From NCBI RefSeq assembly GCF_029626105.1, contig NZ_JARUBH010000009.1:2852001-2916000 (forward strand): a stretch of 64,000 nucleotides of DNA. The letters are read 5' to 3'. The translations under genes were made by a program, and so were the position numbers. Position 1 is the stretch's first letter, and each line of letters opens with the position of its first letter. The DNA comes from Solwaraspora sp. WMMD792. GTDB taxonomy: Bacteria; Actinomycetota; Actinomycetes; Mycobacteriales; Micromonosporaceae. The notes beneath the pieces are model-generated. The model was given only the letters and a program-made list of their open reading frames with translations, did no database searches and was not told where the DNA came from. Below, piece by piece: positions 11,734 to 58,018 of the stretch.

Positions 11734-12564
11734 TTACCCGACGCGGGCCATTCCGCCGTAGCCGAGCTGCCGGGACGGGGTCTGTGCGTCCACGTCGAGA
11801 CCCGGGTCCGGCCGCCAGTCCGCCATCAGGGTCACACCGGGCTCGACCAGCTCCATGCCGTCGAACCAAGAGGTGATGGTGGCCTTGTCCCGGACGTAGA
11901 GGTTCGCGCCGACGCCGGCCTGGTAGGCGGCGACCATCCGGTCCACCTGCCCGCGGGTCTCCTCGTCGGCCGTGTCCGCGCTGAGGTGCGACATCGCGAT
12001 GTAGCTGCCCGGTGCCAGCGCGTCCCGGTAGGCCGCGACGAGCCCGGCCGGATCCTCGTCGTCCTGAACGAAGACGAGCAGCCCGCCGAGGACGATGCCC
12101 ACCGGCTGCGACAGGTCGATCAGCTCGCGGACCGCCGGGTGCGACCACACCTGGTCGGGGTACTTACCGTCGACCTCGGCCATCGCCACCAGCGGCTCCG
12201 TGGCGAGGATGTCCTCACCGTGGACGACAGCCGAGTGGTCGTTGTCCACATAGACCACCCGGGCCTGGGCGTCGAGGGCGTGCGCCACCTCGTGCGTGTT
12301 GCCGACCGTCGGCAGTCCTGAGGCGATGTCGATGAACTGCCGCACGCCCTGGCCGACCAGGTAGCGCACCGAACGGCGCAGCCAGTCCCGGTTGCTCCGG
12401 GCGAGCAGGTCGACGCTGGGCAGCATCAGCTTGATGCGTTCGGCCCGTTCGCGATCGATCGCGAAGTTGTAGAGTCCACCGAGGTAATAGTCGTAGATCC
12501 GGGCGATGTTGGCATTTTCCACATCGGCTCGCACATCGCCCGATTGTCCGATAGTTGCCGTCAT
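11734..12564 (-). CDS. DUF574 / Methyltransf_19 SAM-dependent methyltransferase
   Basis: A protein of about 276 residues of a family abundant in filamentous actinomycetes. The conserved opening is present (ANIARIYDYYLGGLYNFAIDR, split at DYYLGG), then FIDIASGLPTVGNTHEVA as the SAM-binding loop, VYVDNDHSAVVHG, and a C-terminal DWRPD motif. The start is placed at ATG 12564 with CTGGAGG nine bases upstream; a longer frame to 12741 has no supporting signal and is rich in Cys and Arg. The methyl acceptor of this family is largely unknown. It is a single gene, isolated by 344 bp from LtrA. Confidence 0.9.
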   Translation of the reverse strand: MTATIGQSGDVRADVENANIARIYDYYLGGLYNFAIDRERAERIKLMLPSVDLLARSNRDWLRRSVRYLVGQGVRQFIDIASGLPTVGNTHEVAHALDAQARVVYVDNDHSAVVHGEDILATEPLVAMAEVDGKYPDQVWSHPAVRELIDLSQPVGIVLGGLLVFVQDDEDPAGLVAAYRDALAPGSYIAMSHLSADTADEETRGQVDRMVAAYQAGVGANLYVRDKATITSWFDGMELVEPGVTLMADWRPDPGLDVDAQTPSRQLGYGGMARVG

Positions 12565-37740: not shown

Positions 37741-38586
37741 TCACCGCACCGCACGACGGGCGAAGGCCCGCAACGCGGCGGCGGTGGCCGCTGCCGCGAC
37801 CCCCGACAGGACCAGCAGGCACAGACCGATCGGCAGGTGGGTGACGTGCGGCGCCATCGCCGCGCGGAGCGCCTCTGCGGCGTACGTCATCGGGTTCGCC
37901 GCGGTCGCCACCTGGAACCACGGCATCTCGGCCAGCCGCTGCCACGGATAGTGCACGCACCCGGTCCAGATGATCGGGGTGACGAACAGCGAGAAGGTGG
38001 CCTGGATGCGCTGCAACGGCAGCACCGTCGCCAGGGTCATGCCCAGGGCCGCGCCGACCCAGCCGGCCAGCAGCACCACCACCAGGGACAGTGGCAACGC
38101 CGACCAGCCGCCCGGTGCGGACCCGACGACCAGCGCGCCGAGCGGGTAGACCACCACCGCCGCGAACAGGCCACGGAGTGTGGCGACCATCAGCTTGCCA
38201 ACCGCCACCAGCGCCGTCGGCAGCGGCGACAGCAGCCGGTCCTCGATCTCCCGGGTGAAGCCGAACTCCTTGACCAGTGGTACCGCCACGCTCTGCAGCG
38301 CGGTGGTGAAGGTGGCAAGGGCGACCGTACCGGGCAGCAGGATGTCGGCGAACCCGGCGCCGACGATGCCCTGCATGGTCAGCACCTGGGTGAAGATGAA
38401 CAGCATGAACAGCGGGGTCATCAGCACCTGCGCGAGGACGAACCAGATGTCCTTGCCGGCGACGAACAGGTCCCGCCACAGGATCGCGCCGAAGGCCCGC
38501 GCCACCGGTGGTCGCGGTGGCGCGGGCGGTGCCGACGGCGCGGTGGCGTCCGACGACGGTACGGGGGTGACCTCGGCCAGGCTCAA
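37741..38586 (-). CDS. ABC-2 type transporter permease (DrrB/ODR family)
   Basis: A protein of 281 residues with six predicted membrane helices. It contains the ABC2 membrane features VKEFGFTREIEDRLLSPLPTAL and a long hydrophobic C-terminal region. It overlaps the ATPase gene by four bases and is the last gene of the PKS operon. DrrB-type permeases pair with DrrA-type ATPases to export lipids, glycolipids or antibiotics. Here export of the PKS product is the natural role. Confidence 0.92.
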   Translation of the reverse strand: MSLAEVTPVPSSDATAPSAPPAPPRPPVARAFGAILWRDLFVAGKDIWFVLAQVLMTPLFMLFIFTQVLTMQGIVGAGFADILLPGTVALATFTTALQSVAVPLVKEFGFTREIEDRLLSPLPTALVAVGKLMVATLRGLFAAVVVYPLGALVVGSAPGGWSALPLSLVVVLLAGWVGAALGMTLATVLPLQRIQATFSLFVTPIIWTGCVHYPWQRLAEMPWFQVATAANPMTYAAEALRAAMAPHVTHLPIGLCLLVLSGVAAAATAAALRAFARRAVR

Positions 38587-39833: not shown

Positions 39834-39845
39834 CTGCTCTCCTGC

Positions 39846-40853
39846 TCAGGCGGGTCTGGGATGCGAGGCGAAGAACTGCCAGCTGGTCGCGGTGGCGTCC
39901 AGTTCGGTGGCGGGCGGATCCAGGCCGAGGAGCCGGCCCGCCGCAGTCGTCTCGGAACCGGGCCACTGGTGCCCGGCGCCGTCGATGGTGATCAGGGTGA
40001 CGCCGCGACCCGCGGCGCAGTCCGCCACCGAGGTGGTGACACTCCCCTCAGTGGCGGTCCGCGCGGCACCGCACTCGTCGACCTGCCGCCACCGGCCGAC
40101 CAGGTCCGGCGCAGCGGGGCCGTCGGCCTTGTCCGGCACCCGGCCGTTGCCGGCGCCGTCGCGGCGACCCGGGCCGCCGGTGTACGGGATCGTCTCGTCG
40201 GCGGTGCCGTGGATGTGCAGCACGGAGATCGGCTCCGGGGCCGGGCAGTCGCCGAGCATGGTCGTCGCCACCCCGGTCACCGCAGCGAACGTCGAACTGT
40301 CGCAGGCGATCCGGTAGGCGAGCATGCCACCGTTGGACATGCCGGCCAGGTAGTGACGGTCGGGGTCGAAGGAGAGCTGCTGCCCGAGCGACTCCACCAG
40401 GGTGAGGACGAACCCCACGTCGTCGACACCGTCGCGCGCCGCGGCGCCGCAGCACTCCTCGGTCACCGCCCAGGCCCGGTTACGGGAATCCGGGTAGACC
40501 ACCACGAAGCCGTGCTGGTCGGCGACGGCGTTCCAGCCGTACCAGGATTCGGCCTGCCGGCCGCTGCCGAGCAGGCCGTGCAGCATGACGACGACCGGCA
40601 CCGGCGTCGTCTCGGCGACGTCGGCCGGGCGGTACACCCGGTAGGTCCGTTCCTGCCCGTCGACGGTGATCGACCCCGCCGACGAGCCGACCGGTGGGGT
40701 GTCGACCGGAGCGACCACCCCGCCGTCCGTGGCCGGCGGGGTGGTGCCCGATGTCGGCGGTGCCGGGTCCGGCGCCGACGTGCAGCCTGCGACGAGTGTC
40801 CCGAGGACTCCCGTGACAACCAGAACCGCCGACCGGCGTCGGAACCGCGACAT
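39846..40853 (-). CDS. Lipoprotein esterase, LpqC / PHB depolymerase-like
   Basis: A protein of 335 residues. The N-terminal signal ends in lipobox LVAGCTS, predicting Cys lipidation at residue 24 and attachment outside the membrane. After a Pro/Thr-rich linker the esterase fold has VVMLHGLLGSG, the nucleophile elbow AGMSNGGML, an Asp region and a His in DGAGHQWPG. It resembles feruloyl esterase/poly(3-hydroxybutyrate) depolymerase LpqC proteins. It lies 12 bases before the ABC ATPase in the PKS operon, so it may hydrolyse the exported product extracellularly (inference). Confidence 0.88.
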   Translation of the reverse strand: MSRFRRRSAVLVVTGVLGTLVAGCTSAPDPAPPTSGTTPPATDGGVVAPVDTPPVGSSAGSITVDGQERTYRVYRPADVAETTPVPVVVMLHGLLGSGRQAESWYGWNAVADQHGFVVVYPDSRNRAWAVTEECCGAAARDGVDDVGFVLTLVESLGQQLSFDPDRHYLAGMSNGGMLAYRIACDSSTFAAVTGVATTMLGDCPAPEPISVLHIHGTADETIPYTGGPGRRDGAGNGRVPDKADGPAAPDLVGRWRQVDECGAARTATEGSVTTSVADCAAGRGVTLITIDGAGHQWPGSETTAAGRLLGLDPPATELDATATSWQFFASHPRPA

Positions 40854-40869
40854 CGCTCACCTGCTTCTC

Positions 40870-42753
40870 TTAGTGGTGGTGGTGTTTCGGAGTCAACTTG
40901 ATCAACTCCCAGCCGCCCTCAGGGACGTCATCTGTCGGATCTGTCCGCAGATTCATCGGGTTGGCCATACCGAGGTATACCGTGGACCCGTCCACCACCA
41001 TGCTACGGACGCCGTAATTGAGGTAGTTCCCGAGCCCGGCGTTGTCCACCATTTTGGCCGGCCGGTGCGGCGACTCGAAGACCCAGAGGTCGGCGCCGAA
41101 GGCCAGCTCCTCTTCCTCATCGTCGTCGTCACCACCGCGGGCGGCGTCCGCCGGCGGCACCGGCTCGTCCTGCTGCAACTCCTTCGCCAGGTAGCTCCAG
41201 TCCATCGTGCCGACATAGAGCCGGCCACCGGCGACGACCATCTTCCAGGTGTAGTTGAGCGTCGGGTTGTCGAACCCGGACGCCCCGTAGAGCGGGGTGT
41301 ACCCGGTCGACGTGCTGGCCCAGACTCCGGCGCCGTCGCCGGCCGCCGGGTCGTAGGCCGGCAGCTCGCTGGCACCGTAGAGCAGGTCGACCCGGTCGCC
41401 GTGGCCGCCACCGCGCTCGCCGTGGCCGTGCTGGTGGCCGTGGCCGAAGCTGCCCCGGAAGACGCCGATGGCGCGCTGGGTGTTGCGCACCGAGTCCCGT
41501 ACCCCCTGCTCGTCGGTCGGCGGATACACCGCCAGGTGCACCGTCGTCGACTTGAAGGGCACGTGCATGGTCCCCCAGTAGAGGTAGCCACCGTAGGATG
41601 CGAGCCCACCCAATCCGTAGGTACGGGCGATGATCGGATCCGGCTCGTACTCCATCACGTGCCACACCCGGGTCCACCCGTCGACGTCCCGGCTGTCCAG
41701 GCCCGGTCCGTTCGCGGACAGTTTCGGGCTCATCCAGACCCCGGCGATGTTGAGCGGAACCGGCTCCTCGTCGGTGGGTTCGTCGGCGATGCCGGCGGTC
41801 GGTGACACCGGTCCCGGTCCAAACGACTGGGTGTCCTCCGCACCCGGCCAGGTGGTGACGAAGATCCGGCCCTGGTGCACGGTCAGGTCCACCGCCTGGG
41901 CCGGCAGGTCCGCCACCGGCAGGAAGCTGAACGGGTCGGACTTGCTGCCGGTCCACCGCAGCACCAGCCCGCGCTGACCACCGTTGGGGCCTACCCCGAC
42001 GCCGGCGTACATCTCGCCGTCGGCGATGACGAAGTGCCGGATGTTGCCGTACTCGGTGAAGTTTCGCGAGCCAAGGTAGGCACCAGTGTCGGCGTCGAAC
42101 GCGAACAAATTGATCGTGGCACCGAGCGCCGGGCCACCGAGCAGCACCACGCCGCGGTGGTTACCGGCGGCCCGGAAGCCGACGGTCCGCAGCAGGCGGG
42201 CCTCGTCGTCGGGTGAGGCGCCGCGCAGGTCGGCGGTGCGTTCGACCATGCTGCGCCGCTTCAGGTCGTAGGTGTACACCCGAGGGGCACGGTGGTCACC
42301 GACGGTCGGCGGCAGGTCCGGGTTGGCGCGGGCGATCTGGCTCTGGCCGTACTCGCAGACCCAGTCGTCGTTGCGCGTCGGCTGCGTGTTGCGCAGGTTG
42401 TTTCCGCTGGTCAGGCAGTTGGGGTTGGCGCCGGTGCCGAACCACAACCGGTCCTTGTAGCGGGTCAGTCCCCAGACGTAGGCCTGGTTGACCTTGGGCT
42501 GCCCTGTCTCGCAGGGCGGTCCCGGCGGATAGTCGACACCGATGTCGACGAAACACTCGTCGGCCGACGCCTTGGCCAACAGGGTGCTCTGGTAGCGGGT
42601 CCCGCCGTGGTGTCCACCGTGCCTTCCGTCGGTGGTGGCTGCCGACTCGGTACCGGCCACCGGTGCGGCGGCGGCCGGGCCGGCGGCCAGAAGCAGCCCG
42701 GCGAGCACGGCGGCGGCGACCGACCGGCTCGCGGATGGGCGCAACCTACGCAT
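40870..42753 (-). CDS. Secreted His-rich protein of unknown function
   Basis: A protein of 627 residues with a classic signal peptide (MRRLRPSASRSVAAAV, then AGLLLAAGPAAAAP). ATG 42753 is supported by GGGAGAGAG upstream. The mature chain has repeated beta-propeller-like phrases (LYVGTMDW, LYWGTMHVPF, VYLGMANPMN, VYTYDLKRRS), which suggests a propeller fold. Three His-rich patches are present: GRHGGHHGG near residue 45, FGHGHQHGHGERGGGHGD mid-protein, and the KHHHH tail. An acidic patch GGDDDDEEEEL is near 560. These look like metal-binding regions. It lies 50 bases after the sulfotransferase in the PKS operon. I do not recognise the family and cannot assign a function. Confidence 0.85.
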   Translation of the reverse strand: MRRLRPSASRSVAAAVLAGLLLAAGPAAAAPVAGTESAATTDGRHGGHHGGTRYQSTLLAKASADECFVDIGVDYPPGPPCETGQPKVNQAYVWGLTRYKDRLWFGTGANPNCLTSGNNLRNTQPTRNDDWVCEYGQSQIARANPDLPPTVGDHRAPRVYTYDLKRRSMVERTADLRGASPDDEARLLRTVGFRAAGNHRGVVLLGGPALGATINLFAFDADTGAYLGSRNFTEYGNIRHFVIADGEMYAGVGVGPNGGQRGLVLRWTGSKSDPFSFLPVADLPAQAVDLTVHQGRIFVTTWPGAEDTQSFGPGPVSPTAGIADEPTDEEPVPLNIAGVWMSPKLSANGPGLDSRDVDGWTRVWHVMEYEPDPIIARTYGLGGLASYGGYLYWGTMHVPFKSTTVHLAVYPPTDEQGVRDSVRNTQRAIGVFRGSFGHGHQHGHGERGGGHGDRVDLLYGASELPAYDPAAGDGAGVWASTSTGYTPLYGASGFDNPTLNYTWKMVVAGGRLYVGTMDWSYLAKELQQDEPVPPADAARGGDDDDEEEELAFGADLWVFESPHRPAKMVDNAGLGNYLNYGVRSMVVDGSTVYLGMANPMNLRTDPTDDVPEGGWELIKLTPKHHHH

Positions 42754-42803
42754 CAAACACTCTCTCCCTCTACTGTGGTTGATTGGTGCGGGATGGCTCC
42801 GGG

Positions 42804-43766
42804 TCACACGGCGGCGGTCTGCCGTACCGCGCCACCCTTGCCCACCCGGCCGGCGACCTGTCGGGCCCAACCGGACGGGTCGTCGAACTCCAGGAACTCA
42901 CCGAGCCGGGCCAGCTGCGGCTCCGGGTCGGCGACCAGGTCCTCGTAGGTCATGGTGAGCAGGTGCGCCGGCGGATTGTCGGCGAGCGCCTGCTCGGCCT
43001 GCGCCGCCATGAACGCGCAGAGCCCGAGGTAGCGGGTACTGTCCTCGCCACGCTCGCGGAGCAGGTCGGCGGTGATCCGGCCGGGCAGCAGATGCTCGAG
43101 TTCGGCCGGCACCTGCTGGTCCGGGTCCATTCGGAAGGGATCCACGCCGCACCGCGAGACGAACTCCAGTCGCAGCTGGATGAGCTGGAACGACGAGTGC
43201 CGGCTCATCGACCGCGCGGTGTCCGCCCAGTTGCGGGTCAGGTAGATGATCCGGGTGTCCGGGAACGACCGCAGCAGGTACGGGGCGATCTGACTGGACC
43301 CGCCGGACCGCTCCACCCAGCGCCGCCGGCCGGTCAACCGGGTGAGCAGGTCCAGGAACATCCGGTGGTGGTCGACGAACGGCTGCTCAGGGAAGTCCGG
43401 CACCTGGCCGGCGAGCTGGTCGAACAGGCCGTCCGGGTCGTCGGTGAGTTTCGGCAGGGTGATCGCCAGCAGCTGCGGCAGCTCGGTCAGGTTGCCGGCC
43501 CACCTGCCGTCCGCCGGGTAGCGGACCTCCTTCGGCGGCAGGCCGATGGCGAACAGCGTGGCAAGCTCCGGTTTCGGGCTGCTCAGCACCTGCCAGTACG
43601 CCGCCCCGGTGATCGGCTCCCCAGCCTTCGCCCACGACGGGGTGGCCATGAAGAACTCCTGGACCGAAAGGGTCGCCGGCTCCTCGACGATCAGGTCGGA
43701 CAGCAGGGTGGAACCACACCGCCCACTGCTGATGATGATCGCCCGTCCGGGCGCCTCGAACTGCAT
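42804..43766 (-). CDS. PAPS-dependent sulfotransferase (Sulfotransfer_3/Stf0-like)
   Basis: A protein of 320 residues. The PAPS-binding 5'-phosphosulfate loop is seen as IIISSGRCGSTLLSDL at residues 10-25, and the 3'-phosphate region around LRSFPDTRIIYLTRNWADTARSM near 175-200. It transfers sulfate from PAPS to a hydroxyl or related group. The gene lies 27 bases after the alpha/beta hydrolase and just upstream of the secreted protein in the PKS operon. In curacin and 1-alkene PKS pathways a sulfotransferase activates a beta-hydroxyl for decarboxylative release; alternatively this enzyme makes a sulfated lipid. Both are inferences. Confidence 0.92.
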   Translation of the reverse strand: MQFEAPGRAIIISSGRCGSTLLSDLIVEEPATLSVQEFFMATPSWAKAGEPITGAAYWQVLSSPKPELATLFAIGLPPKEVRYPADGRWAGNLTELPQLLAITLPKLTDDPDGLFDQLAGQVPDFPEQPFVDHHRMFLDLLTRLTGRRRWVERSGGSSQIAPYLLRSFPDTRIIYLTRNWADTARSMSRHSSFQLIQLRLEFVSRCGVDPFRMDPDQQVPAELEHLLPGRITADLLRERGEDSTRYLGLCAFMAAQAEQALADNPPAHLLTMTYEDLVADPEPQLARLGEFLEFDDPSGWARQVAGRVGKGGAVRQTAAV

Positions 43767-43793
43767 CGAAACCTCCTGGTGAAAACGACGACG

Positions 43794-44714
43794 TCAGCCG
43801 CGCAGGGCGGGCTGACCGGTGTCGGCGAGTTGGCGGGCGAGCCAGGGCAACACCTGGCGCCGGACCTGGTCGCGGGCGGTGACCAGCACCGCGTGCCGGT
43901 GCCCGGGGACGACCACCAGCTCGGTCTGCGGCAGCAGTTGCACCAGCGCCGGAGCCAGATCGGCGGCGGACGAGTCGCTACCGAAGATTCCGAGCACCGG
44001 GCAGGTGATCGCCCGTAGCGCGGCCGGGTCGGCGGGTGTGCTGGCCGGCAGGTCCCGGCCGGCGGTAGTGGTGGCGACGAGCCGGCGGACCGCCGCGGCG
44101 TACCGGGCGCCCCGCTCACCCCCGCGGGTAGTCAGCGCCGGCGGCTCGCCGTCGCCGTCCGGCTGCGCGGCCCGCTCCAGCTGACGGCCCACCCGGGCGA
44201 GCCACTGGGCGGTGGCCGGCGCCGACTCCACCGCGACCAGCGAGGCGACCCGGTCCGGGTGGCGGGCCGCGTACCCGAAGGCGATGGAACCGCCCAGCGA
44301 GTTGCCCAGCAGATGCACCGGCGCGTCGACACCGAGCTGCTCCAGCAGCGCGGCCAGGTCGTCAACCAGGTCGTCCAACCGGTAGCCGGCCGGCGGCCGC
44401 TCGGTCCGTCCGTGGCCCCGCAGGTCGTACATGACCACCCGGAATCCGGCGTCGGCCAGTGGATGTGCCAGGCTGAGATACCAGCTGGCCAGGCTGTCCG
44501 GCCCGATTCCGTGGATCAGGACCGCGACCGGTCGGCCGGCCGACGATTCGGCCGCTGGGCCGACCGCCGGGCCGGCACCAGGTTCGCCGCCTGGGCCGGC
44601 ATCCGCAGCGGCGGCCACTCCCCCGGCGGCCACTCCCCCGGCGGCCGGCTCGGCGGCCACCGGTGGGAGTTCCTGGACATGCGTCACCAGGCCGTTGACC
44701 TGGATCATCGTCAC
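43794..44714 (-). CDS. Alpha/beta hydrolase, possible chain-release thioesterase
   Basis: A protein of 306 residues. The oxyanion region is VLIHGIGPDS, the nucleophile elbow LLGNSLGGSIA (GNSLG rather than GHSxG), the acid lies in FGSDSSAADL and the His in VPGHRHAVLV. An N-terminal Ala/Gly/Pro-rich insertion at about 18-58 contains AAGGVAAGGVAAAADAGPGG. It overlaps the ACP gene by four bases and precedes the sulfotransferase. Position after the ACP suggests it releases the polyketide thioester. Confidence 0.85.
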   Translation of the reverse strand: MTMIQVNGLVTHVQELPPVAAEPAAGGVAAGGVAAAADAGPGGEPGAGPAVGPAAESSAGRPVAVLIHGIGPDSLASWYLSLAHPLADAGFRVVMYDLRGHGRTERPPAGYRLDDLVDDLAALLEQLGVDAPVHLLGNSLGGSIAFGYAARHPDRVASLVAVESAPATAQWLARVGRQLERAAQPDGDGEPPALTTRGGERGARYAAAVRRLVATTTAGRDLPASTPADPAALRAITCPVLGIFGSDSSAADLAPALVQLLPQTELVVVPGHRHAVLVTARDQVRRQVLPWLARQLADTGQPALRG

Positions 44715-45025
44715 TGGCCGGCCACCTGCGCCACGCTGGCCGGCGGGCTGTCCAGCGCGGTGGCGATGTGCTCGACCAGTTCGCCGACCCGCAGCGCGCG
44801 CAGCGAGTCCACGTCGAGTCCCGCGACGAACTGGGCGAAGTTGACCGAGTCGCCGTACCGGGCCTGCAGCCGCCCGGCGAGCGAGATGACGTCGATGCTC
44901 TCCATCTCCAGGTCGTCCCGGAAGCTGGTGTCCATCGTGATTTCCTCGTCCGGATCGATGCCGGGCAGCACCGCGCGCAGCATCTGCGAGATCTCCGTCA
45001 GGATGGTGTCGTGGTCGGCGGGCAT
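44711..45025 (-). CDS. Free-standing acyl carrier protein
   Basis: An ACP of 104 residues. The phosphopantetheine site is the Ser in DDLEMESIDVISL, preceded by MDTSFR and followed by GDSVNFAQFV. The ATG at 45025 has AAGGAG at a good distance and lies 67 bases after PKS-B. The sequence differs from the three ACP repeats inside PKS-A (which read SIDSIKR), so it is not a copy of them. It may carry the finished chain or a starter for release by the adjacent hydrolase/sulfotransferase pair. Confidence 0.92.
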   Translation of the reverse strand: MPADHDTILTEISQMLRAVLPGIDPDEEITMDTSFRDDLEMESIDVISLAGRLQARYGDSVNFAQFVAGLDVDSLRALRVGELVEHIATALDSPPASVAQVAGQ

Positions 45026-45092
45026 GATGCGGGTCTCCTTGTCAGGACGTCGATCGGCTTTCTCGGCAGGTCGATCGGGCCGTTTTCGGGGC

Positions 45093-48000
45093 CTACCGGG
45101 TAGGTTCCGGGCCCCAGGTCCAACCAACGACGTAGCGTCGCTGCGGCAGGTCGGGCGGGTTCTCCAGGCTCCGGCAGGTGACCTGGTAGGACCTGCCGGA
45201 GGGAGCCTCGACCAGCAGGGTGCCGGCGTCGACGGCGACCACCCGTAGCCGGCGGGGCGCTCCGTCCAGCCCGGTCCCCTCCGCCTTGCCGGCGGCCTCC
45301 TTGGCCGCCCAGAAACAGGCGAACCAGAACCACCGGTCGCTGCCGGCGCTGACCTGGTCGAGCAACGCGACCTCCGCACCGGACAGGGCGTAGTCGACCG
45401 TGCTGTCCGGCCGGTCGGTGACCTCGACGATGTCGATACCGACGCCGGGGCCGTCCGGCGTCGACCGGGCCGGGCCGGCGATCGCCACGGCGGCTTCGGC
45501 GCAGTGCGCCAGGGACAGGTCGCACTCCCGCAGGTCCCGGCCGGGACGCAGGTCGGCACGCGGCCGGCCGTTCGGGTCGTTGGCGATGGTCAATTCGATC
45601 GGGTACACGTCGGTGTGCCCGGCGTCCCACTGTCGGAACCGCACCGCGTCCTTCGCCGCGATCCGGCCGAGCAGCCACTGTTTGCGGGTCTTCCCTGGCT
45701 GCCGCTCGTAGTCGGCGGACGCGGCGGTACCGAGGATGCCCCGCGCGGCCATCGACTGGGTGACCAGATCGGTCCAGCAGTCGAACACCGCGGTCCACCC
45801 TTCCGGCTGACGGACCGACATCGGGTGACGTTCCGGGAATCGTTCAGCCGGACGTGCCTGCGGATGGCTGTCGAACCGACGGTCGACCGCGCCGTCGATC
45901 TGCGCCCAGACCCGGCCGCCGACGGACAGCTGGGTGTCCGCGACCAGTTGAGAGTCGTCGATCGATCGAACCCGGGCGACGCACTCGAACGCCGTGCCGG
46001 GCTCGGGCGGCGGGCCGAAGAACCGGACGTGGCCGAGACCGACCGGCAGCGCCACGGTGCGCATCGGCTGGGTGGTGATGAGCCAGTTCCCGATCAGCTG
46101 CAGGGCATTGTCCAGCAGGGCACCCGGCGGGACGGGCGCGGTGACCACGCCGCGTACGTGCATCTCGCCGAGGGCGTGCACCGTGGTCACCCCGTGGAAC
46201 TGGGGACCGTGGAACATCAGCCGCTCCGCGTACATCTCCTCGGCGCTGATCCGGGGAGCGGTCTCGGTGGCCGGGTCATGGGTCCACGGTTCGCTCACCG
46301 GGGCCGGATAGTCGGCGGCCACGTCGACCGTGGCTCGGGCGAAGCTGCCGAAGTTCACCGCGTACGAGTCCGGGCCGGCCGACCGGACGACGATCTCGAC
46401 GTCCTGCGCCGGTGCCGCGATGGTCCACCGGTTGAACCGGGCGTCGCGCACACCGACCACTCGCAGACCGGGGACAGCCTGTGCGACAGCGTCCATCATG
46501 TGGTGTACGACGGTCGTCGCCGGCACCACCGGCCACCGGTCCTCCGGGTTCGGCCAGTCCTCCGGCTGCACGAAGAAGCAGTGGTCGAGCAGGTACGGCA
46601 TGGTCTGCACGGAGACCCGCAGGGTGGTCCGGGCGATCTCGGTACGGGGCGGCGGGGCGGCCGTCGGCACCGGCGCCGACCTGGTCGGCCCGGCTGCGGC
46701 CGGTACGGTGACCGGCCGGGCGTCAGCCGGCGGTGCGGTGCCCGGCCGGGCCGGCGCGGCCGGAGACACCGGAGCCGCTGACACCGGGGCCGTTGACACC
46801 GGGGCCGTTGACACCGCGGCCGGGCCGGCGGGTCGGGTGGCGGCGTCCAGCACGGTCACCGCACCGTCCGCGGTGTCCCGCAGCAGCGCGGCGAGTTCGG
46901 CGGCGGCCTTGGACCGGCCGGCGAGCCGGTGCAACGCGGTGAGCGAACCGGCCGACGACTCGGAGGCTGCCGACGGCTGAACAGCGGCCGACGGCTCGGT
47001 TTCTGCCGGCGATTCGGCGTGCGCCGGTGGCCGGGGTGAAGCAGGTGGCCGGAGTTCAGCAGGCGGCGCGGGTACCTCCTGTGTGGCGGCGGTGGCGGCG
47101 GCCGACGGTTGGGCCCCGGCGACCGGCGGACCGGACGGCCGGTGTGACGGCAGATCGGCCAGGCCGAGCAGGGTGTCGGCACCCGGCCCGAGGCGCACCA
47201 ACGGGCCACCCAGGTCCAGCTGGATCTTCGGCCCCCGGCGCGGTGGTGCCGCCGGGGCAGCCGGTGCCGGCGTCACCGGGGCGGCGGCCGCAGCGGGTGG
47301 CCGCAGCGCCCGCAGGTCCGGTGCCGCGCCCTCCACCCACAGCGCGGTGGCCACCCGGCGCAACTGATCGAGACCGGTACGGTGACCCACGTTGACCGGC
47401 ATCGCGAGATGGTCCCGACCGCGCAGGTTGTCGCTGACCAACGACGCCAACTGTCCCGCGCCGACCTGCAGGAAGACCCGGAACCCGGCGTCGTACATCG
47501 CGGCGGTCAACTGCCGGAACCAGACCGGCTCCATCATGTGCCGGACGAAGATCTGGTTGACCTGCTGCTCGTCGGCGGGGAACGGCGCTGCCAGGGTCGC
47601 CGACCAGACCGGGACCGTGGTCGGATGCACCCGCCAGGACTGCAGGGCGACCCCGATCGACCGCAGCCCGTCGGCGAACGCCGGAGTATGGAAGGCCGAC
47701 CGGAACGGCAGCTTCTGGCACAGCACGTTACGCCGACGTAGCTCGTCAACCAGTCGGTCGACCTGCTCCTCCGGGCCGTTGACCACCGACTGCGCGGGCG
47801 CGTTGTCGTGGGACAGGACAACTCCCGGATAGCCGCCGAGCACCGGCGTCACCTGGTCGGCACCGGCACCGACGGCGGCGAAGACATAGCCGGACACCGC
47901 CACCGAGTCGGCGTCGAACAGTTTGAGGAAACCGTCCATGTCGGTGGTGCTGACCTGCCCACTCACCGCCGCGGCGGACCATTCACCGATGCTGTGCCCG

Positions 48001-49955: not shown

Positions 49956-52900
49956 CCCGAGGCGGTGTAGACCACGGAGGTGACCGCCGGGTCACCCCAG
50001 GCGAGCTCGCGAAGCAGACTCAGCGCGCCCTCCTCGGGATCGATCAGGTCGATGCCCCGGCGGGCGTACTCCCGGCTCAGCTCGGCGCTGACCATCCCGC
50101 CGTGCACCGAGCCCGGCGCCCACGGCCCCCAGTGCACGGTCAGGCAACGCACCCCGGTGCCGGCCGCCCATCGGCCACCGATCCGGTCGAGCGCGTCGTT
50201 GGCGGCGGCGTAGTCGCTCTGACCCCGGTTGCCGTACGCGGCCGCGATGCTGCCGAACAGCACCACGAAGCGTGGCTCGGAGCCGTCGCGCAGCGCGTCG
50301 AGCACCGTCACCGCACCTTGTACCTTCGTCTGGAACACCCGGTCGAACGACGCCGGATCCTTCTCGGCGATCAGCTTGTCCTCGATCCGGCCGGCCGCGT
50401 AGACCAGACCGTCGATCCGTCCGTGCTCGCCCTGGATCTCCTTGAGCAGTTGCCGGGTGGCGTCGGCGTCGGTGACGTCGAGGCTGTGGTAGCGCACCTG
50501 GCTGCCGAGTTCCCGCAGCTCGTCCAGGGTCGCGCGGACCTCGCGGGCGGCCAGGATCGCGGTGGCCGTACGGTCGATCTCCGCCGGTGCGCGCATCCCC
50601 TGGGCGACCAGCGCGGCCCGCAACGCCGGCTTGTCCGCCGCAGCGGCCAGCGCCGGGGACTCCGCCTCCTGCGGCAGCGGGGTACGGCCGACCAGCTCGA
50701 TGCGGCATCGGCTGGCGGCGGCCAGGGTACGGGCGAACCACGGGGTGATGCCCCGGGCACCACCGACGAGCACCACCACCGAGTCTTGGTCCAGACCGAT
50801 CGCCTGGGTCTCGGCGACGCCGTCACCGGCCGGTCCGGCACCGCCTGCGGCGAGCGGGCCGAGATCGACCGCGGCCAGGTCGACGGTCTGCCGGCCGGCC
50901 GCCGACCAGGTGACGATCGGGGTCTGTCCGCCACTGAGCAGTTCGGTGACCAGGCCGGTGGCAAGCTGGGTGTGGTCGGCGCCCGCCGGTACCTCCAGAT
51001 AGGTCACCGAGACCTGCGGGTACTCCCGTTGGATGGTCCGGAACAGGCCGGCGAATCCGTCGGTACGCGGACCGGCGGTGCCCGCGGCGACCAGCCACCG
51101 CACGCCCGCCGCGAGGGCCTGCTTGATGAACGGGAAGATGCCGGGCAGCAGCGGCCCGCCGCTGTCGCTCAGCCCGTCCAGGATGATCACGCCGTCGTAG
51201 CCGGTCACCTGGTCCGACCCACCGGCGTGGATCGATCCGGTGGCGCCTGCCGCGCCGTGCTGGGCGAGCTGCTCGGCCAGCGGTGCCAGGGCCGGCGACC
51301 CGCCGGTGATCAGGAACCGGGTACCGGCGAGCGCCTCCGGCGCGACGACCGCACCGGTGGCGGGAACCGGCCGGGCGACGAGTCGACGTGGGGCCGTACC
51401 GCTGTCCGGGCCGGACCCGGCCGGCTGCGCCGGAGATGCCGCCGGTGCCGCCTCGGGTGCCTGATCGGCCGCCATCTTCTCGGCCAACCACGCCACCATC
51501 GTGCGCACCGTCCGAGCCCGAACCAGCTCCTCCAACTCCGACTCGTCACCATCCACCGACAACCGCAACCGGGTCGCCACCTCACCAGCAACCTCAGCCC
51601 GCTTGATCGAATCGATACTCAGATCCGCCTCAAGATCCAAATCCAACTCGATCAAATCCACCGGATACCCGGTCCGCTCACTCAACACCTCCAGGATCGC
51701 CTCCTGGAACTGCGCCACCCCCACCGACACAGCCGCCGGCCCGGCAGCCGAAGGCGACGTGGACACAGCGGGTGCCGAGACGGCCGGCGCGGTGGCCGTG
51801 GTCGGGACGACCGCCGGCGCTGCCGCCGGTGCCGCCTCAGGTGCCTGATCGGCCGCCATCTTCTCGGCCAACCACGCCACCATCGTGCGCACCGTCCGAG
51901 CCCGAACCAGCTCCTCCAACTCCGACTCGTCACCATCCACCGACAACCGCAACCGGGTCGCCACCTCACCAGCAACCTCAGCCCGCTTGATCGAATCGAT
52001 ACTCAGATCCGCCTCAAGATCCAAATCCAACTCGATCAAATCCACCGGATACCCGGTCCGCTCACTCAACACCTCCAGGATCGCCTCCTGGAACTGCGCC
52101 ACCCCCACCGACACAGCCGCCGGGGACGACACGGGACCAGCGGCCGGGGAGACAGGTGGCGCGGTAGCAGTGGTCGTGGTGACCGCAGGCGCATGGCTCG
52201 GCGCGGTCACCGACGTGACCGGTTCGACGGTCGCGGGTGCGGCCGCCATCTTCTCGGCCAACCACGCCACCATCGTGCGCACCGTCCGAGCCCGAACCAG
52301 CTCCTCCAACTCCGACTCGTCACCATCCACCGACAACCGCAACCGGGTCGCCACCTCACCAGCAACCTCAGCCCGCTTGATCGAATCGATACTCAGATCC
52401 GCCTCAAGATCCAAATCCAACTCGATCAAATCCACCGGATACCCGGTCCGCTCACTCAACACCTCCAGGATCGCCTCCTGGAACTGCGCCACCCCCACCG
52501 ACGCGGCCGCCGGCCGTACCGCGACCGTCGCGGTCACCGTCGCTGCCGTCGACACGGGATCCGTGGGGGCCGCCACCGACGTCGCGGCGACAGCCGGTGC
52601 GGCGGTCTTGTGGACCGTCGGGGCCGCCGGCACGTCCTCGCGCACCGCTGGAGCGGGCCGGACGGCGGGTGCCGCCGGAGCAGCCTGGGCGGCGGGTGCC
52701 GCCGGAGGCGTCGGGTCGGCAGGCGACGCCGGGATGGCCGGCAGATCGGTCACCCGGGGTGCGCTGGTCGGCGCGACCACCTCGGGGTAGCTGCTCGGCG
52801 CGGCAATCGCCGGCTGCGCCACGACCGACGGATACGCCGCAGGCCCGACCCACCCGTTGCCGGCCGGCGGCTGCTCCCCGAAGTACGCCAACATCACGTC

Positions 52901-55900
52901 CCGCTGGGAGGCGATCAGTTCCCGACTCGTCCGCAGAAACTCGCTGATCAGTTCGTCGCGCCCGTCCCGGTAGCCGGCTGCGGGGACGGGCCGGCCCCCG
53001 GCATCGGCAGCTGGAAGGTGGCTGATCCCGTTGCCGTGGACATGGCTATGCCCGTTGCCGGACACATGGGCCACGCCGTTGCCGGAGCCATGGGCCACGC
53101 CGTTGCCGGGACCATGGCCGTTGCCGGACACATGCGCCACGCCGTTGCCATGGCCGTTGCCGGGACCATGGCCGTTGCCGGACACGTTGCCGAGACCACG
53201 ACCGTTTCCGGCCTCGGTGGATGCACTCATCGACAGCTCCTTGATTTGTCGGGGAGGCGTCATGCCGCCGGGCAGCGGCCGGCCATGCTGGTCGCGTACC
53301 AGCTGCCCGTCGACCGTCCAGACCGGACGCGACGACGGCGGGGCGGGCGCGATCTCGGCGACTCGCCGGCCGCGGTAGAGCCAGTCGGTCTGCACCGGGA
53401 CCCCGGCGCAGGCCAGTTCGGCGACGGCGGAGAGAAAACCACGTAGTCCGTCCGCCCGCCGACCGTCGCAGGCGACCGCCACGTGTGGGCGCTCACCCAG
53501 GACGGCGTCGACCAGCCGGGTGAGTACCTGGCCGGGACCGGCTTCGACGAAGACGCGGGCTCCGGCGGCGTACATCGCTTCGATCTGGTCGACGAACCGC
53601 ACCGGGGCGCCGATCTGCGCGGCGAGTTCGTCACGGATCTGGTCCGCACCACCCGGGTAGGGCTGGGCGGTGCGGTTCGACCAGACGGGAAGGCTGGGGG
53701 CGGCCACCGGATGGCCGTCGAGGGTGGATCTGAAGGCGGTGACACCGTCGGCGACCACCGGGCTGTGAAACGCACAGGCCACCGCGATCGGCCGGGCAGA
53801 CAGACCCTTCTCCTTGAGTACGGACACCGCGCGGCGCACCGCCGGGGTCGGGCCGGAGATCACCACCTGCCGCGGGCCGTTGTGGTTGGCGAGCACCACC
53901 TCACCGGCCAGCCCGGCCCCGGACAGCACCTCACCGATCTGCTCGGCGGTGGCCGCCACTGCGGCCATCGTGCCGGGATCGTTGCCAGCGGCCGCCAGGA
54001 TCGCGTCGGCGCGCTGGCGGCTCAGCTCGAGCAGTGTCCGGTCCTCGAATGCGCCGGCGACGCACAGCGCCACCAGCTCGCCGTAGCTGTGCCCGCCGGC
54101 GAGGTCCGGCCGGATGTTCAGCCGACCGAGCAGGTGGTGCACGGCGAGCCCACCAATGCCGAGCACCGGCTGGGCGATCCGGGTGTCCCGGACCCGGTCC
54201 TGTTGACCCCGGTCGTACTCGGGGTCGAACGCGGCCGGTGGGAAGAGCGGTTCGACGTAGTCACGGCCGATGTCCAGGAACCGCCGCAGCTCCGGGAAGC
54301 TGACGAACAGATCGGCCAACGCACCCGGGCGTTGGCTGCCCTGGCCCGGGAAGAGGAAGGCGACCTTGCCGTCCGCGCCCGGTGGCTCAGCCGGCTGGAA
54401 CAGCCCACGCGCCGGATCGTGCTCACCGGCGATCGCCCGGCGCAGCAGTCCGGCCAGGTCGTCAAGGTCACTGGCGACGATGGCGACCTGCACCGGGCCG
54501 GACCGGTTCTCAGCCTGGCGGGACTGGGCGGCGGCGAGGTCGCGCAACCGCCAGCGCCGGCCCAGCGCGTCGCGGGTGTCGATGGTGTCCAGCAGCGCCC
54601 GCATCGCCTGGTGCGTGCCGGCCCGGTCGCCGGCCCGGAAGCAGAACAGCTCGGCCGGCCATTCGTCGCGGGCGTGTCGCGGTTCGGGTGCGTCGGCGTA
54701 GGCGCTGAGCACCGCGTGGAAGTTGGTGCCGCCGAACCCAAAGGCGCTGACCCCGGCGACGCGTTCGCTGGCCGGTGCCGCCCACGGCCGCGCCGAGGTC
54801 TCGAAGGCGAACGGGCTCCGATCGGGGTGCCAGGCCGGGTTGGGCCGGGTCACGTGCAGGGTGGGCGGCCGGACCCCGGTGTACAGCGCGAGCGTGGCCT
54901 TGATCAGACCGGCCAGACCGGCCACGCACTTGGTGTGCCCGATCTGCGACTTGACCGACCCGAGGGTGCAGCTGCCGGGTGTGGCACCCGCCTCGCTGAA
55001 CACCGTGGTCAACGTCTCCAGCTCGGTACGGTCGCCGACCACCGTGCCGGTGCCGTGTGCTTCGATCAGGCCGACCTGCGCCGGCGACACCCCGGCCTGC
55101 CGGTACGCGCGGTCCAGGGCCCGCCGCTGGCCGGCCGCTCGGGGTGCGGTCAGGCCCAGGGCCCGTCCGTCGCTGGACCCGCCGAGTCCTTTGATCACCG
55201 CGTAGACGCGGTCGCCGTCGCGCTGCGCGTCGGACAGTCGCTTGAGCACGACGGCGGCGACGCCCTCGCCGAGCGCGATCCCGTCACCGGCGCTGTCGAA
55301 CGAACGGCACCGCCCGGTCGGAGACAGCGCGTGCGCCGAGGTGAACATGAGGTAGTCGTTGATGCCGTTGTGCAGGTCGGCACCACCGCAGATCATCAGG
55401 TCGCTGCCGCCGCTGGCGAGCTCCTTGCAGGCGGCGTCCATGGCGGCCAGCGACGAGGCGCAGGCCGCGTCGACGGTGTAGTTGGGGCCGCCCAGGTCGA
55501 GCCGGTTGGCGACCCGGCCGGCGATGACGTTGGCCAGGATGCCGGGGAACGAGTCCTCGGTGACGGTCGGCAGCTGCTCGTCCAGCTCACCGGGAACCTC
55601 CGGCAGGTAGGCCGGCAGCATGGTCCGCAGCGTCTGCGCGTGCCCCATGTCGCTGCCGGCCTCGGCTCCGAAGATCACCCCGGTACGGGAGTGGTCCACC
55701 CCGTCGCTGCCGGGGGTGTAGCCGGCGTCGACGAGGGCCCGCTGGGAGACCTCCAGGGCCAGTAGCTGGGTGGGGTCGATGCTGGCCAGGGCGGACGGTG
55801 GAATCCCGTACCCGATGGCGTCGAACGGGACCTCGGCGAGGAAGCCACCCCACTTCGAGACGCTGTACCGGCCGGTCTGACCGGGTCCGACCTCGGGCGC

Positions 55901-58018
55901 GTAGTAGATGTCCGGGTTCCACCGGTGCGGTGGTACCTCGGTGACAGCGTCGGCGCCGTCCAGCACGGTACGCCAGAACGCGGCGAGGTCCGGCGAGTTC
56001 GGCAGCATGCACGCCATGCCGACGATGGCGATGTCCAGCGGCTCCGCCGGCACCTCCGGCTCGGCCGGGGTCCAGTCGGCCCGCAGCCGCTGGGACCGGG
56101 CGGTGTGGAAGGCGACCGCCTGGTCGGTGACCGTACCGTGCAGCGCCGAGACAGTGGTCTCCTGCTCCCGCAGCACCGCGACCTGGCCGGCCATGAACAT
56201 GCCCTCGCTGAGCTGGGCCGCCTCGTCGACGTCCACCAGCGCGTCGCCGTCGCGCCGCTTACCCTTGCTGGCGATCCGCAGCCGGCCCACGTTGAGCAGC
56301 TCGAGGTGCTCCCACACCTGGCGGTTCTCCAGGCCGGCGGACTCGAGCTCGGCTCGCAGCGCGTGGAAGTCGTCGACGAAGTCGCTCTGCAGGCACCGGG
56401 TCACGTGTCCCGGTGCGGTCTCCAGCAACGCGGTCCGGGTCGCTTCCCGGGCCATCCGGGCGAAGGTTGGTTGGATCGCGCCGTGCGCGACGGCCTCCGC
56501 GGTGAACAGGTAGGCGGTGCCCATCAGCACCCCTACCCGGACGCCTCGCCGGGTCAGCGGGGCGGCCATCGCGGCGATCATGGCCGCCGACCGGTCATCG
56601 TGGATGCCGCCGGCGAAGAAGATCTGGATCTCGGCCGCCTCTTCCGGTGTCGCACCGGCGAGGTGCTCGGCGAGTACGGCGAGCTGCGCCTCCCACAGCG
56701 GAAAACTGGCCCGGGGGCCGATGTGGCCGCCGCACTCGGCGCCTTCGAAGATGAACCGGCGGGCACCGGAGCGCAGGAACTGGCGCAGCAGCCCCGGTGA
56801 CGGCACGTGCAGGAAGGTCCGGATCCCTTCCCGTTCCAGTTCCTTGGCCTGTGGTGGGCGGCCCCCGGCGATGATGGCGAAGTCCGGGCGGATCCGCCGG
56901 ATCACGTCGAGCTGGGCGGCGCGGATCTCCTCGGGCGCGAAGCCGAGCACACCGACGCCCCAGGGACGTCCGCCGATGCGGGCGGCGGTGTCGGTGAGCA
57001 TCTCCTCGGTGCGTTCGGCGGTGGCCAGTGCCAGCGCGATGAACGGCAGCGCCCCGTCGGCGGCGACTGCTGCGGCGAAGCCGGCCTCGTCGCTGACCCG
57101 GGTCATCGGGCCCTGCGCGACCGGCACCCGCAGGCCGAGGTCCTGGGCCAACGGACCGCCGGGGCGCAGTACCTCGGCCGCAGCGGCGTCGGTCGCCGCG
57201 TCGACGATCGACTCGCGGATGCCACGGACCGCGGCCGCGGCGTCGGACCAGCGGCCGGCGAACTCGGCGGCCAGCCAGCCGTCCTGGCCGACCGGCAGCA
57301 GGTCGGCGCGGGCCGGGACACCGGCCGCGCCCGGCCGGCGCGGAGCCCGTGGGATCCCCCGGTATCCGTCGACCAGGACGCTCTCCGACCCGTCCATCCG
57401 CCGGATCGCGGTCAGTACGTCGGCCGGCAGGTCCGACTCGGGCATCAGGGCCAGCTGGTTGTCCAGCACCACACCGGCGGCCCCGCCCAGCACGCAGGCG
57501 GCGGCCGTGTACGGCCCGATCCCGCCCAGCGCCCAGACCGGCACGCCCAGGTCGGCGGCGGTGAGTTGCTGGACGAGGACGAAGGTGCTCAGCTCGCCGA
57601 CCTCGCCACCGGACTCCATGCCGCGGGCGATCAACCCGTGCACACCCGCCGCCGCTGCGGTCCGGGCCGCGGCGAGGCTGGTCACCTCGGCGAGTACGCG
57701 GTAGCGGGTCACCAGTTCGGACAGGTTCCACGGCAGCTCGCCGGTGACGACCACCAGCTCCACCCGGCCAGGCGCGAGCCGTTCGAGGTCGTCCACCGAG
57801 GCCGGACAACTCGCCGGGACGCGGACCGCGATCGGCCCGTCCGACCAGGCGGCCAACTGTTCCACGGCGCGCAGGACCTGCGGCCGGGTTCCGGCCAGGT
57901 CGAGCACGCCGGTGCCGCCGCCCCGGCGGACCGCGCTGGCGATGCGTGGGCTCGGCTCGATCTCGCCGCAGGGGGTGTAGGCGATCACCAGGTCACGCAT
58001 GTCGACTGCAATACTCAT
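49949..58018 (-). CDS. PKS-A: two nitronate-monooxygenase-like ER barrels-KS-AT-ACP-ACP-ACP-KR
   Basis: A protein of 2689 residues. The N-terminus has two FMN nitronate-monooxygenase/PfaD-like halves (about 1-240 and 285-560), the second with FEGAECGGHIGPRAS near 427. KS follows (about 655-1090, Cys853 in VDAACASSL, His in EAHGTGTV and IGHTKCVAG), then AT (about 1190-1480, Ser1311 in GGHSYGELVA), a Gly-Asn-His-rich linker (about 1598-1675) and three ACPs with pantetheine Ser1879, Ser2009 and Ser2137, each in LSIDSIKRAE. The KR (about 2390-2680) has VGGARGITPWF and FGSIAAAYGNRGQSDYAA. PUFA synthases put KS-AT-ACPs-KR in PfaA and the flavin ER in separate PfaD; here they are fused in reverse order. 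ATG 58018 has GGGAG upstream. First gene of the nine-gene operon. Confidence 0.94.
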   Translation of the reverse strand: MSIAVDMRDLVIAYTPCGEIEPSPRIASAVRRGGGTGVLDLAGTRPQVLRAVEQLAAWSDGPIAVRVPASCPASVDDLERLAPGRVELVVVTGELPWNLSELVTRYRVLAEVTSLAAARTAAAAGVHGLIARGMESGGEVGELSTFVLVQQLTAADLGVPVWALGGIGPYTAAACVLGGAAGVVLDNQLALMPESDLPADVLTAIRRMDGSESVLVDGYRGIPRAPRRPGAAGVPARADLLPVGQDGWLAAEFAGRWSDAAAAVRGIRESIVDAATDAAAAEVLRPGGPLAQDLGLRVPVAQGPMTRVSDEAGFAAAVAADGALPFIALALATAERTEEMLTDTAARIGGRPWGVGVLGFAPEEIRAAQLDVIRRIRPDFAIIAGGRPPQAKELEREGIRTFLHVPSPGLLRQFLRSGARRFIFEGAECGGHIGPRASFPLWEAQLAVLAEHLAGATPEEAAEIQIFFAGGIHDDRSAAMIAAMAAPLTRRGVRVGVLMGTAYLFTAEAVAHGAIQPTFARMAREATRTALLETAPGHVTRCLQSDFVDDFHALRAELESAGLENRQVWEHLELLNVGRLRIASKGKRRDGDALVDVDEAAQLSEGMFMAGQVAVLREQETTVSALHGTVTDQAVAFHTARSQRLRADWTPAEPEVPAEPLDIAIVGMACMLPNSPDLAAFWRTVLDGADAVTEVPPHRWNPDIYYAPEVGPGQTGRYSVSKWGGFLAEVPFDAIGYGIPPSALASIDPTQLLALEVSQRALVDAGYTPGSDGVDHSRTGVIFGAEAGSDMGHAQTLRTMLPAYLPEVPGELDEQLPTVTEDSFPGILANVIAGRVANRLDLGGPNYTVDAACASSLAAMDAACKELASGGSDLMICGGADLHNGINDYLMFTSAHALSPTGRCRSFDSAGDGIALGEGVAAVVLKRLSDAQRDGDRVYAVIKGLGGSSDGRALGLTAPRAAGQRRALDRAYRQAGVSPAQVGLIEAHGTGTVVGDRTELETLTTVFSEAGATPGSCTLGSVKSQIGHTKCVAGLAGLIKATLALYTGVRPPTLHVTRPNPAWHPDRSPFAFETSARPWAAPASERVAGVSAFGFGGTNFHAVLSAYADAPEPRHARDEWPAELFCFRAGDRAGTHQAMRALLDTIDTRDALGRRWRLRDLAAAQSRQAENRSGPVQVAIVASDLDDLAGLLRRAIAGEHDPARGLFQPAEPPGADGKVAFLFPGQGSQRPGALADLFVSFPELRRFLDIGRDYVEPLFPPAAFDPEYDRGQQDRVRDTRIAQPVLGIGGLAVHHLLGRLNIRPDLAGGHSYGELVALCVAGAFEDRTLLELSRQRADAILAAAGNDPGTMAAVAATAEQIGEVLSGAGLAGEVVLANHNGPRQVVISGPTPAVRRAVSVLKEKGLSARPIAVACAFHSPVVADGVTAFRSTLDGHPVAAPSLPVWSNRTAQPYPGGADQIRDELAAQIGAPVRFVDQIEAMYAAGARVFVEAGPGQVLTRLVDAVLGERPHVAVACDGRRADGLRGFLSAVAELACAGVPVQTDWLYRGRRVAEIAPAPPSSRPVWTVDGQLVRDQHGRPLPGGMTPPRQIKELSMSASTEAGNGRGLGNVSGNGHGPGNGHGNGVAHVSGNGHGPGNGVAHGSGNGVAHVSGNGHSHVHGNGISHLPAADAGGRPVPAAGYRDGRDELISEFLRTSRELIASQRDVMLAYFGEQPPAGNGWVGPAAYPSVVAQPAIAAPSSYPEVVAPTSAPRVTDLPAIPASPADPTPPAAPAAQAAPAAPAVRPAPAVREDVPAAPTVHKTAAPAVAATSVAAPTDPVSTAATVTATVAVRPAAASVGVAQFQEAILEVLSERTGYPVDLIELDLDLEADLSIDSIKRAEVAGEVATRLRLSVDGDESELEELVRARTVRTMVAWLAEKMAAAPATVEPVTSVTAPSHAPAVTTTTATAPPVSPAAGPVSSPAAVSVGVAQFQEAILEVLSERTGYPVDLIELDLDLEADLSIDSIKRAEVAGEVATRLRLSVDGDESELEELVRARTVRTMVAWLAEKMAADQAPEAAPAAAPAVVPTTATAPAVSAPAVSTSPSAAGPAAVSVGVAQFQEAILEVLSERTGYPVDLIELDLDLEADLSIDSIKRAEVAGEVATRLRLSVDGDESELEELVRARTVRTMVAWLAEKMAADQAPEAAPAASPAQPAGSGPDSGTAPRRLVARPVPATGAVVAPEALAGTRFLITGGSPALAPLAEQLAQHGAAGATGSIHAGGSDQVTGYDGVIILDGLSDSGGPLLPGIFPFIKQALAAGVRWLVAAGTAGPRTDGFAGLFRTIQREYPQVSVTYLEVPAGADHTQLATGLVTELLSGGQTPIVTWSAAGRQTVDLAAVDLGPLAAGGAGPAGDGVAETQAIGLDQDSVVVLVGGARGITPWFARTLAAASRCRIELVGRTPLPQEAESPALAAAADKPALRAALVAQGMRAPAEIDRTATAILAAREVRATLDELRELGSQVRYHSLDVTDADATRQLLKEIQGEHGRIDGLVYAAGRIEDKLIAEKDPASFDRVFQTKVQGAVTVLDALRDGSEPRFVVLFGSIAAAYGNRGQSDYAAANDALDRIGGRWAAGTGVRCLTVHWGPWAPGSVHGGMVSAELSREYARRGIDLIDPEEGALSLLRELAWGDPAVTSVVYTASGW
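51467..51728 (-). repeat. Tandem ACP repeat, copy 1 (encodes ACP3)
   Basis: Core repeat of 262 bp identical base for base to 51851-52112 and 52241-52502. The match to copy 2 extends further (51438-51739 against 51822-52123) with one difference seen. It encodes the third ACP. Confidence 0.93.
51851..52112 (-). repeat. Tandem ACP repeat, copy 2 (encodes ACP2)
   Basis: Identical to copies 1 and 3 over 262 bp, including synonymous positions. It is 384 bp (128 codons) from copy 1 and 390 bp (130 codons) from copy 3. Confidence 0.93.
52241..52502 (-). repeat. Tandem ACP repeat, copy 3 (encodes ACP1)
   Basis: Third identical copy. Its linkers to neighbours differ in sequence, so homogenisation is limited to the ACP core. 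Base composition is less GC-rich than the flanking linkers. Confidence 0.93.
53000..53225 (-). repeat. Low-complexity Gly-Asn-His linker repeats in PKS-A
   Basis: Short imperfect repeats around CCGTTGCCGGA/CATGGCC encode a linker of GNGHGPGNG, GNGVAHVSGNG and similar units just after the AT domain. I take it as a flexible interdomain linker, not a separate element. Confidence 0.8.

Follow-up and report, generated by a model that had tools for sequence, protein, structure and literature searches.

In a 64,000-nucleotide (nt) stretch of the 7.4 Mb genome of Solwaraspora sp. WMMD792 (contig NZ_JARUBH010000009.1, positions 2,852,001 to 2,916,000; hereafter the window), nine genes on the minus strand, running from 58018 down to 37741, form a polyketide synthase (PKS) operon that probably makes a sulfated long-chain lipid, the molecule itself being predicted from the genes. 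A sulfated lipid is probable because the fifth gene encodes a sulfotransferase that sits where Streptomyces relatives carry a glycosyltransferase. The original prediction had the operon make and export a sulfated or sulfation-processed long-chain lipid; the alternation of glycosyltransferase and sulfotransferase, together with the CysD, CysN and CysQ-like genes of related clusters, strengthened the sulfated-lipid part of that claim, and the exporter proved optional.

All nine genes are open frames with a stop at the end only (9/9). They are listed here in order of transcription, all on the minus strand.

49949..58018, minus: PKS-A, 2689 amino acids (aa); enoylreductase (ER) 1 (without GGH), ER2, ketosynthase (KS), acyltransferase (AT), three acyl carrier proteins (ACPs), ketoreductase (KR); fused PfaD/PfaA-like (domain searches, motifs)
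45093..49955, minus: PKS-B, 1620 aa; KS, AT, dehydratase (DH)-like region, phosphopantetheinyl transferase (PPTase); fused PfaB/C-like with PPTase (domain searches, motifs)
44711..45025, minus: stand-alone ACP, 104 aa (domain search)
43794..44714, minus: alpha/beta hydrolase, 306 aa, Ser139-Glu163-His274; likely to release or transfer the chain
42804..43766, minus: sulfotransferase of the 3'-phosphoadenosine-5'-phosphosulfate (PAPS) type, 320 aa, where related clusters have their glycosyltransferase (Sulfotransfer_3)
40870..42753, minus: secreted protein, 627 aa, of a family with no convincing Pfam or PDB match
39846..40853, minus: lipoprotein esterase, polyhydroxybutyrate-depolymerase-like, 335 aa (NF050058, 169.7 bits; cut-off 150)
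38583..39833, minus: ATP-binding cassette (ABC) transporter ATPase, DrrA-like (best NCBIfam model drrA, 267 bits, under the cut-off of 312)
37741..38586, minus: ABC-2 permease, TTG start, overlapping the ATPase gene (domain search)

PKS-A and PKS-B overlap by 7 nt, ACP and hydrolase by 4 nt, and the ABC ATPase and permease by 4 nt. The widest gap is 67 nt, between PKS-B and ACP, and all other junctions overlap or measure at most 67 nt, confirming the predicted same-strand run with gaps of 67 bp or less.

A sulfotransferase in the place of a glycosyltransferase

Searches with the C-terminal part of PKS-B gave matches in 9/396 phylum genomes, 36/200 family genomes and 41/121 genomes of the genus of G222, which we name as Streptomyces on the basis of a PKS-B stretch in G665 identical to that of a Streptomyces plasmid (L097). 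From 42 PKS-B matches we fetched 38 (left out: G620, G663, G674 and G706). The loci outside the close family form numbered 48, comprising 39 from Streptomyces, four divergent family copies, four from other families of the phylum and the plasmid; as L097 and L117 have one and the same PKS-B sequence over the stretch compared, the 48 loci represent 47 different rows. In every one of them PKS-B, ACP and hydrolase are followed by a glycosyltransferase (48/48), with a methyltransferase further along in 34/48, and at 1e-5 none of these stretches matched the sulfotransferase, the secreted protein or the esterase. Likewise, the 20 fetched family loci that carry the sulfotransferase held no glycosyltransferase of this kind, bar an unrelated 27% match about 7 kb off (L037).

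The plasmid of Streptomyces sp. NBC_00984 (L097) illustrates the alternation. PKS-A, PKS-B, ACP and alpha/beta hydrolase are ordered as in the window, with PKS-B about 51-57% identical over two matched stretches, whereas the fifth gene encodes a glycosyltransferase (Pfam UDPGT and EryCIII-like matches; macrolide glycosyltransferase model below its cut-off) followed by a methyltransferase, and homologues of the sulfotransferase, secreted protein and esterase were not detected there. In one distant cluster (L104, 17722-19273), a tandem pair of alpha/beta hydrolase genes lies ahead of the glycosyltransferase.

A PKS-B tree of 68 rows separated the 20 sulfotransferase rows from the 48 glycosyltransferase rows by a single branch (support 100/100). 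With a midpoint root, the sulfotransferase clade was nested within the glycosyltransferase rows, suggesting a single switch from a sugar to a sulfate, within the limits set by long branches and the midpoint root. The comparison predicts that the gene after the hydrolase sets the polar head group, a sugar in Streptomyces and a sulfate in Micromonosporaceae.

The lipid synthase and the constant core

Domain searches agreed with the ER-ER-KS-AT-ACP3-KR architecture predicted for PKS-A, finding two ER units of the FabK/nitronate monooxygenase (NMO) type, then KS, AT, three ACPs and KR. Both ER units are FabK/NMO-like, as expected for the proposed NMO-type pair, but the His of the GGH motif is present only in ER2 (12/12 loci), not in ER1 (0/11 loci). 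The three ACPs are 92-99% identical over 300 nt (51428-52501, minus strand), which points to recent duplication or homogenisation, and PKS-A scored 972.8 bits against the PfaA model TIGR02813, just below the curated cut-off of 1010.1. For PKS-B, the KS, AT and PPTase of the proposed KS-AT-DH-PPT order were recovered, whereas the DH region gave no Pfam or PDB match and shows DH-like His and Asp motifs only. Cys and His motifs are retained in the KS of both proteins, and no chain length factor (CLF) domain was identified among the PKS domains.

The PPTase of the window carries NGRP at P1a and LSLAH at P1b', with no match at P0 or P1b, and the LSLAH-type motif recurs in 20/20 sulfotransferase-form rows. 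In the accessible portion of the survey by Shulse & Allen 2011 (PMC3098273), P1a x(G/D)xP and P1b' hShxH, without P1b (F/S)NxSH, are given jointly for Types M-T, and Renibacterium is among the Type M organisms listed; accessible text of another study (PMC13291983) calls PfaD-A and PfaB-C-PPTase fusions Renibacterium-like. The domain order of PKS-A and PKS-B matches these fusions (PfaD-PfaA; PfaB-C with PPTase). On the fusion order and the PPTase motifs common to Types M-T, the pair is likely Type M. Type M secondary lipid synthases resemble the window's pair in being actinobacterial and in their P1a/P1b' PPTase, as described in the same portion of PMC3098273, and in the fused genes described in PMC13291983; the 2011 survey gave no product for them. 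The synthase itself is thus not new, being of a published type. A known difference is that the accessible Type M text never mentions a sulfotransferase or glycosyltransferase; within this known but uncharacterised kind of synthase, the form with a sulfotransferase stands apart as a variant that has a predicted sulfated product and a secreted partner family.

To define which genes are constant, we compared 19 cluster loci (set A) from 20 fetched around close family sulfotransferases with 25 further-fetched cluster loci (set B), some from the same genomes; several loci of both sets end early, so that counts of downstream genes are lower bounds. A sulfotransferase of at least 60% identity occurs in 33 genomes of the family, namely the window's own, 20 fetched for synteny and 12 judged by coordinates. 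PKS-A, PKS-B, ACP, hydrolase and sulfotransferase were ordered on one strand in 19/20 fetched loci, the exception (G158) having a sulfotransferase without the cluster. In set B, PKS-B, ACP, hydrolase and sulfotransferase were present in 25/25 and PKS-A in 23/25, the other two being short contigs. These five genes, PKS-A wherever the locus reaches except for those two contigs, are the constant core. The stand-alone ACP was found in 19/19 set A, 25/25 set B and 48/48 glycosyltransferase loci. Wherever a family genome has a close PKS-B match (≥62%), the sulfotransferase lies 1.0-1.5 kb away from it in the same orientation (32/32), a linkage beyond chance. At 1e-25, the sulfotransferase profile matched 4/396 phylum genomes: the window's, G003 of the same family, and two far weaker from other families. 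Rows left out were L024, L027, L035 and L036 for A1; L024, L027, L031 and L035 for A2; L024, L027 and L028, then L032, for A3; and L065 and L066 for A4.

Downstream of the core, the secreted protein was present in at least 16/19 set A and 22/25 set B loci, the esterase in at least 14/19 and 19/25, and the exporter in at least 8/19 and 7/25. The nine-gene set is therefore a local form. Distant sulfotransferase homologues (28-41% identity) also lie close to other PKS genes, both in genomes of the family and in Actinoplanes, Microbispora and Streptosporangium (L080-L083, L042, L043, L046, L048, L049 and L054).

Sulfate supply and the secreted family

Some related clusters carry sulfate-activation genes. 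In Micromonospora-type loci, the genes after the permease are one of the inositol-monophosphatase family, then CysD and CysN; for the first of these the best NCBIfam model is CysQ (96.1 and 90.0 bits; cut-off 228.8). In Phytohabitans (L033 and L070) CysD and CysN, both above model cut-offs, come after the esterase. A same-strand downstream CysD was found in 5/19 set A and 8/25 set B loci; L026 has a CysN match in pieces only, and L063 a CysD match on the opposite strand in two pieces. Among the 15 genomes in which CysN was counted, G003, G010, G048 and G068 have two copies each, one of them beside the cluster, and such an extra copy fits a sulfotransferase that consumes PAPS. G001 has one full copy, outside the cluster, while G103 and G182 have 4 and 3 matches, some of them on short contigs, where they may be copies made by the assembly. 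In two genomes the sole CysN lies about 8-9 kb past the cluster esterase on the same strand (G119:C1:8650540-8651769 and G056:C1:666539-667768).

The sixth gene had been described as encoding a secreted His-rich protein, but His-rich stretches were confined to rows of the window's genus and the conserved feature is the secreted protein family; on this ground, the idea that the family's conserved role is that of a His-rich metal protein was rejected. The family was found in 35/200 family genomes, namely every one of the 32 cluster genomes and three more (G044, G121 and G197; weaker or partial), and in 1/198 genomes of the phylum sample, the window's own. Pfam searches gave no match for the window's member and four families with one or two of 21 members each (E 0.02-0.24), and no PDB chain was matched up to E 10. 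LYxGT-like motifs recur, but an hhalign self-comparison found no significant internal repeat (best off-diagonal probability 5.2%), which falls short of establishing a beta-propeller fold. Lacking a convincing Pfam or PDB match, the family provides a handle on the extracellular role of such lipids.

Copies of the family also occur in other arrangements. A second copy, about 54% identical, lies away from the operon in the window's genome (G000:C9:1732720-1734399; L155), with others in further members of the genus, G003 and G182, and four Actinoplanes-type loci (L031, L032, L035 and L040) have two or three tandem copies downstream of the sulfotransferase. In a Plantactinospora-type locus (L160, G078; 9166-12464), the secreted-protein and esterase genes are divergent, on the far side of PKS-A; though moved, they stay with the cluster.

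Fate of the sulfate, comparisons and flanking genes

In the pathway that we propose, PKS-A and PKS-B, as a Type M-like pair resembling polyunsaturated fatty acid (PUFA) synthases, would build a long acyl chain by iterative condensation, and the KR, DH and ER2 steps would leave at least one hydroxyl on it. The alpha/beta hydrolase, with the stand-alone ACP, would release or transfer the chain, a step common to the glycosyltransferase clusters. The PAPS-dependent sulfotransferase, whose substrate and timing of action we infer, would then sulfate a hydroxyl in place of the GT1-like glycosyltransferase, giving a head group of sulfate rather than sugar. The product would be exported, in the window's cluster by the ABC pair, and the secreted protein and lipoprotein esterase may handle it outside the membrane. 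Taken as a whole, a PUFA-synthase-like chain with a sulfate head group, export and extracellular handling is the best explanation, and we hold it with somewhat better than even confidence.

Several observations weigh against it. No described product for this gene set was found among the titles and abstracts listed, which covered a minor part of the subscription literature. Most loci other than the Micromonospora type have no exporter (some end early). The cluster loci of the window's own genus have no CysD or CysN, and the one above-cut-off CysN of the window's genome lies elsewhere; more widely, 8/15 genomes hold a single CysN, outside the stretch that was read (G034, G105, G037, G053, G119, G056, G078 and G024). 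The direction of change from sugar to sulfate hinges on the root, which is a midpoint. Finally, the best fold match of the modelled sulfotransferase is the sulfotransferase domain (ST) of CurM, whose sulfate is a leaving group.

This last point raises the main rival, a split form of off-loading as in curacin and olefin synthase (OLS) assembly, in which the beta-hydroxyl of an ACP-bound chain would be sulfated and the hydrolase, acting as a decarboxylating thioesterase (TE), would yield a terminal alkene, CO2 and sulfate. The TE of CurM has a Ser-Glu-His set, and the TEs of CurM and OLS have a sulfate-binding Arg. Ser139, Glu163 and His274 of the hydrolase form a similar set, and ACP, hydrolase and sulfotransferase genes are adjacent. 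In the accessible text on CurM and OLS, the ST sulfates the beta-hydroxyl and the TE then decarboxylates (PMC6274090, PMC3903477). As far as those texts describe them, the CurM and OLS enzymes are fused PKS domains, whereas here the genes are separate and the hydrolase also occurs in clusters without an ST.

Ser139, Glu163, Ser248 and His274 of the hydrolase are conserved at 94-100% in both the sulfotransferase group (16 rows) and the glycosyltransferase group (48 rows), and the presence of the same hydrolase in 48/48 glycosyltransferase clusters lowers the alkene reading. No basic residue was unique to the sulfotransferase group (16 versus 48 rows), R285 being enriched only (94% versus 19/48). 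In a profile search of the PDB with the hydrolase, 28 other sequences ranked ahead of 3qit; by sequence profile, glycopeptide sulfotransferases outscored 4gbm. The OLS ST (4gox) was absent from the 50 fold matches listed, all of them chains ranked by Foldseek. An exporter, an esterase and a secreted partner would also suit a hydrocarbon poorly. We consider alkene formation unlikely, at roughly one chance in five; the match to the CurM fold keeps it first among the rivals. The evidence leans towards a sulfate that is kept rather than lost. Judging from these sequences, we somewhat favour the hydrolase performing one and the same step in both forms, with the next gene decorating the chain.

The sulfotransferase itself has the marks of a PAPS-dependent enzyme: its PF13469 match exceeds the cut-off, and GRCGST (residues 15-20), R178 and S186 are invariant in 32 rows. 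We take the GRCGST loop to be the 5'-phosphosulfate loop, and R178 and S186 to be the Arg and Ser that contact the 3'-phosphate. It might instead act on a sugar, the chain having been glycosylated by an enzyme encoded elsewhere to give a sulfoglycolipid. This we regard as improbable, since the clusters with the sulfotransferase are precisely those that lack a linked glycosyltransferase (the search covered the cluster loci) and Stf0 was not among the closest folds of the sulfotransferase model. Sulfation of the secreted protein rather than of a lipid is very improbable, given that the sulfotransferase fills the slot of a small-molecule-type glycosyltransferase and has no signal peptide visible by eye (no predictor was run).

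Mycobacterial sulfolipid-1 (Pks2, Stf0) is likewise an actinobacterial PKS lipid with a sulfotransferase and an exporter. In the heterocyte glycolipid (hgl) islands of cyanobacteria, according to the accessible text of PMC11804610, the long-chain aglycone is a PKS product, HglT attaches the head group as the final step, and the islands include ABC transporter genes; by that description they share with the window's cluster related PKSs, a separate head-group enzyme and transporter genes, and differ in their sugar head group and other gene set. Heterocyte glycolipids are the nearest working analogue. We put at about even the broader proposal that a single change of head-group enzyme replaced sugar by sulfate in this synthase family, and that the sulfate form gained the secreted family, seen almost nowhere else, and, in part of the lineage, CysD, CysN and CysQ-like genes of its own for activating sulfate and clearing PAP, making a sulfolipid surface system specific to Micromonosporaceae.

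The strong hairpin that had been proposed to end the operon did not hold up: it folds at -31.5 kcal/mol, a value equalled by 24/200 shuffled sequences (z -1.15), it has no T-run and it is not in the list of the terminator scan. A strong terminator at this position was rejected, the hairpin being no better than shuffled sequence. Upstream of PKS-A, three divergent plus-strand genes, their translations read by eye, encode a protein with a membrane segment and a fibronectin-III-like end (58388-59470), a long protein with fibronectin-III-like repeats (59691-62417) and a MoxR-like ATPase (62470-63465).
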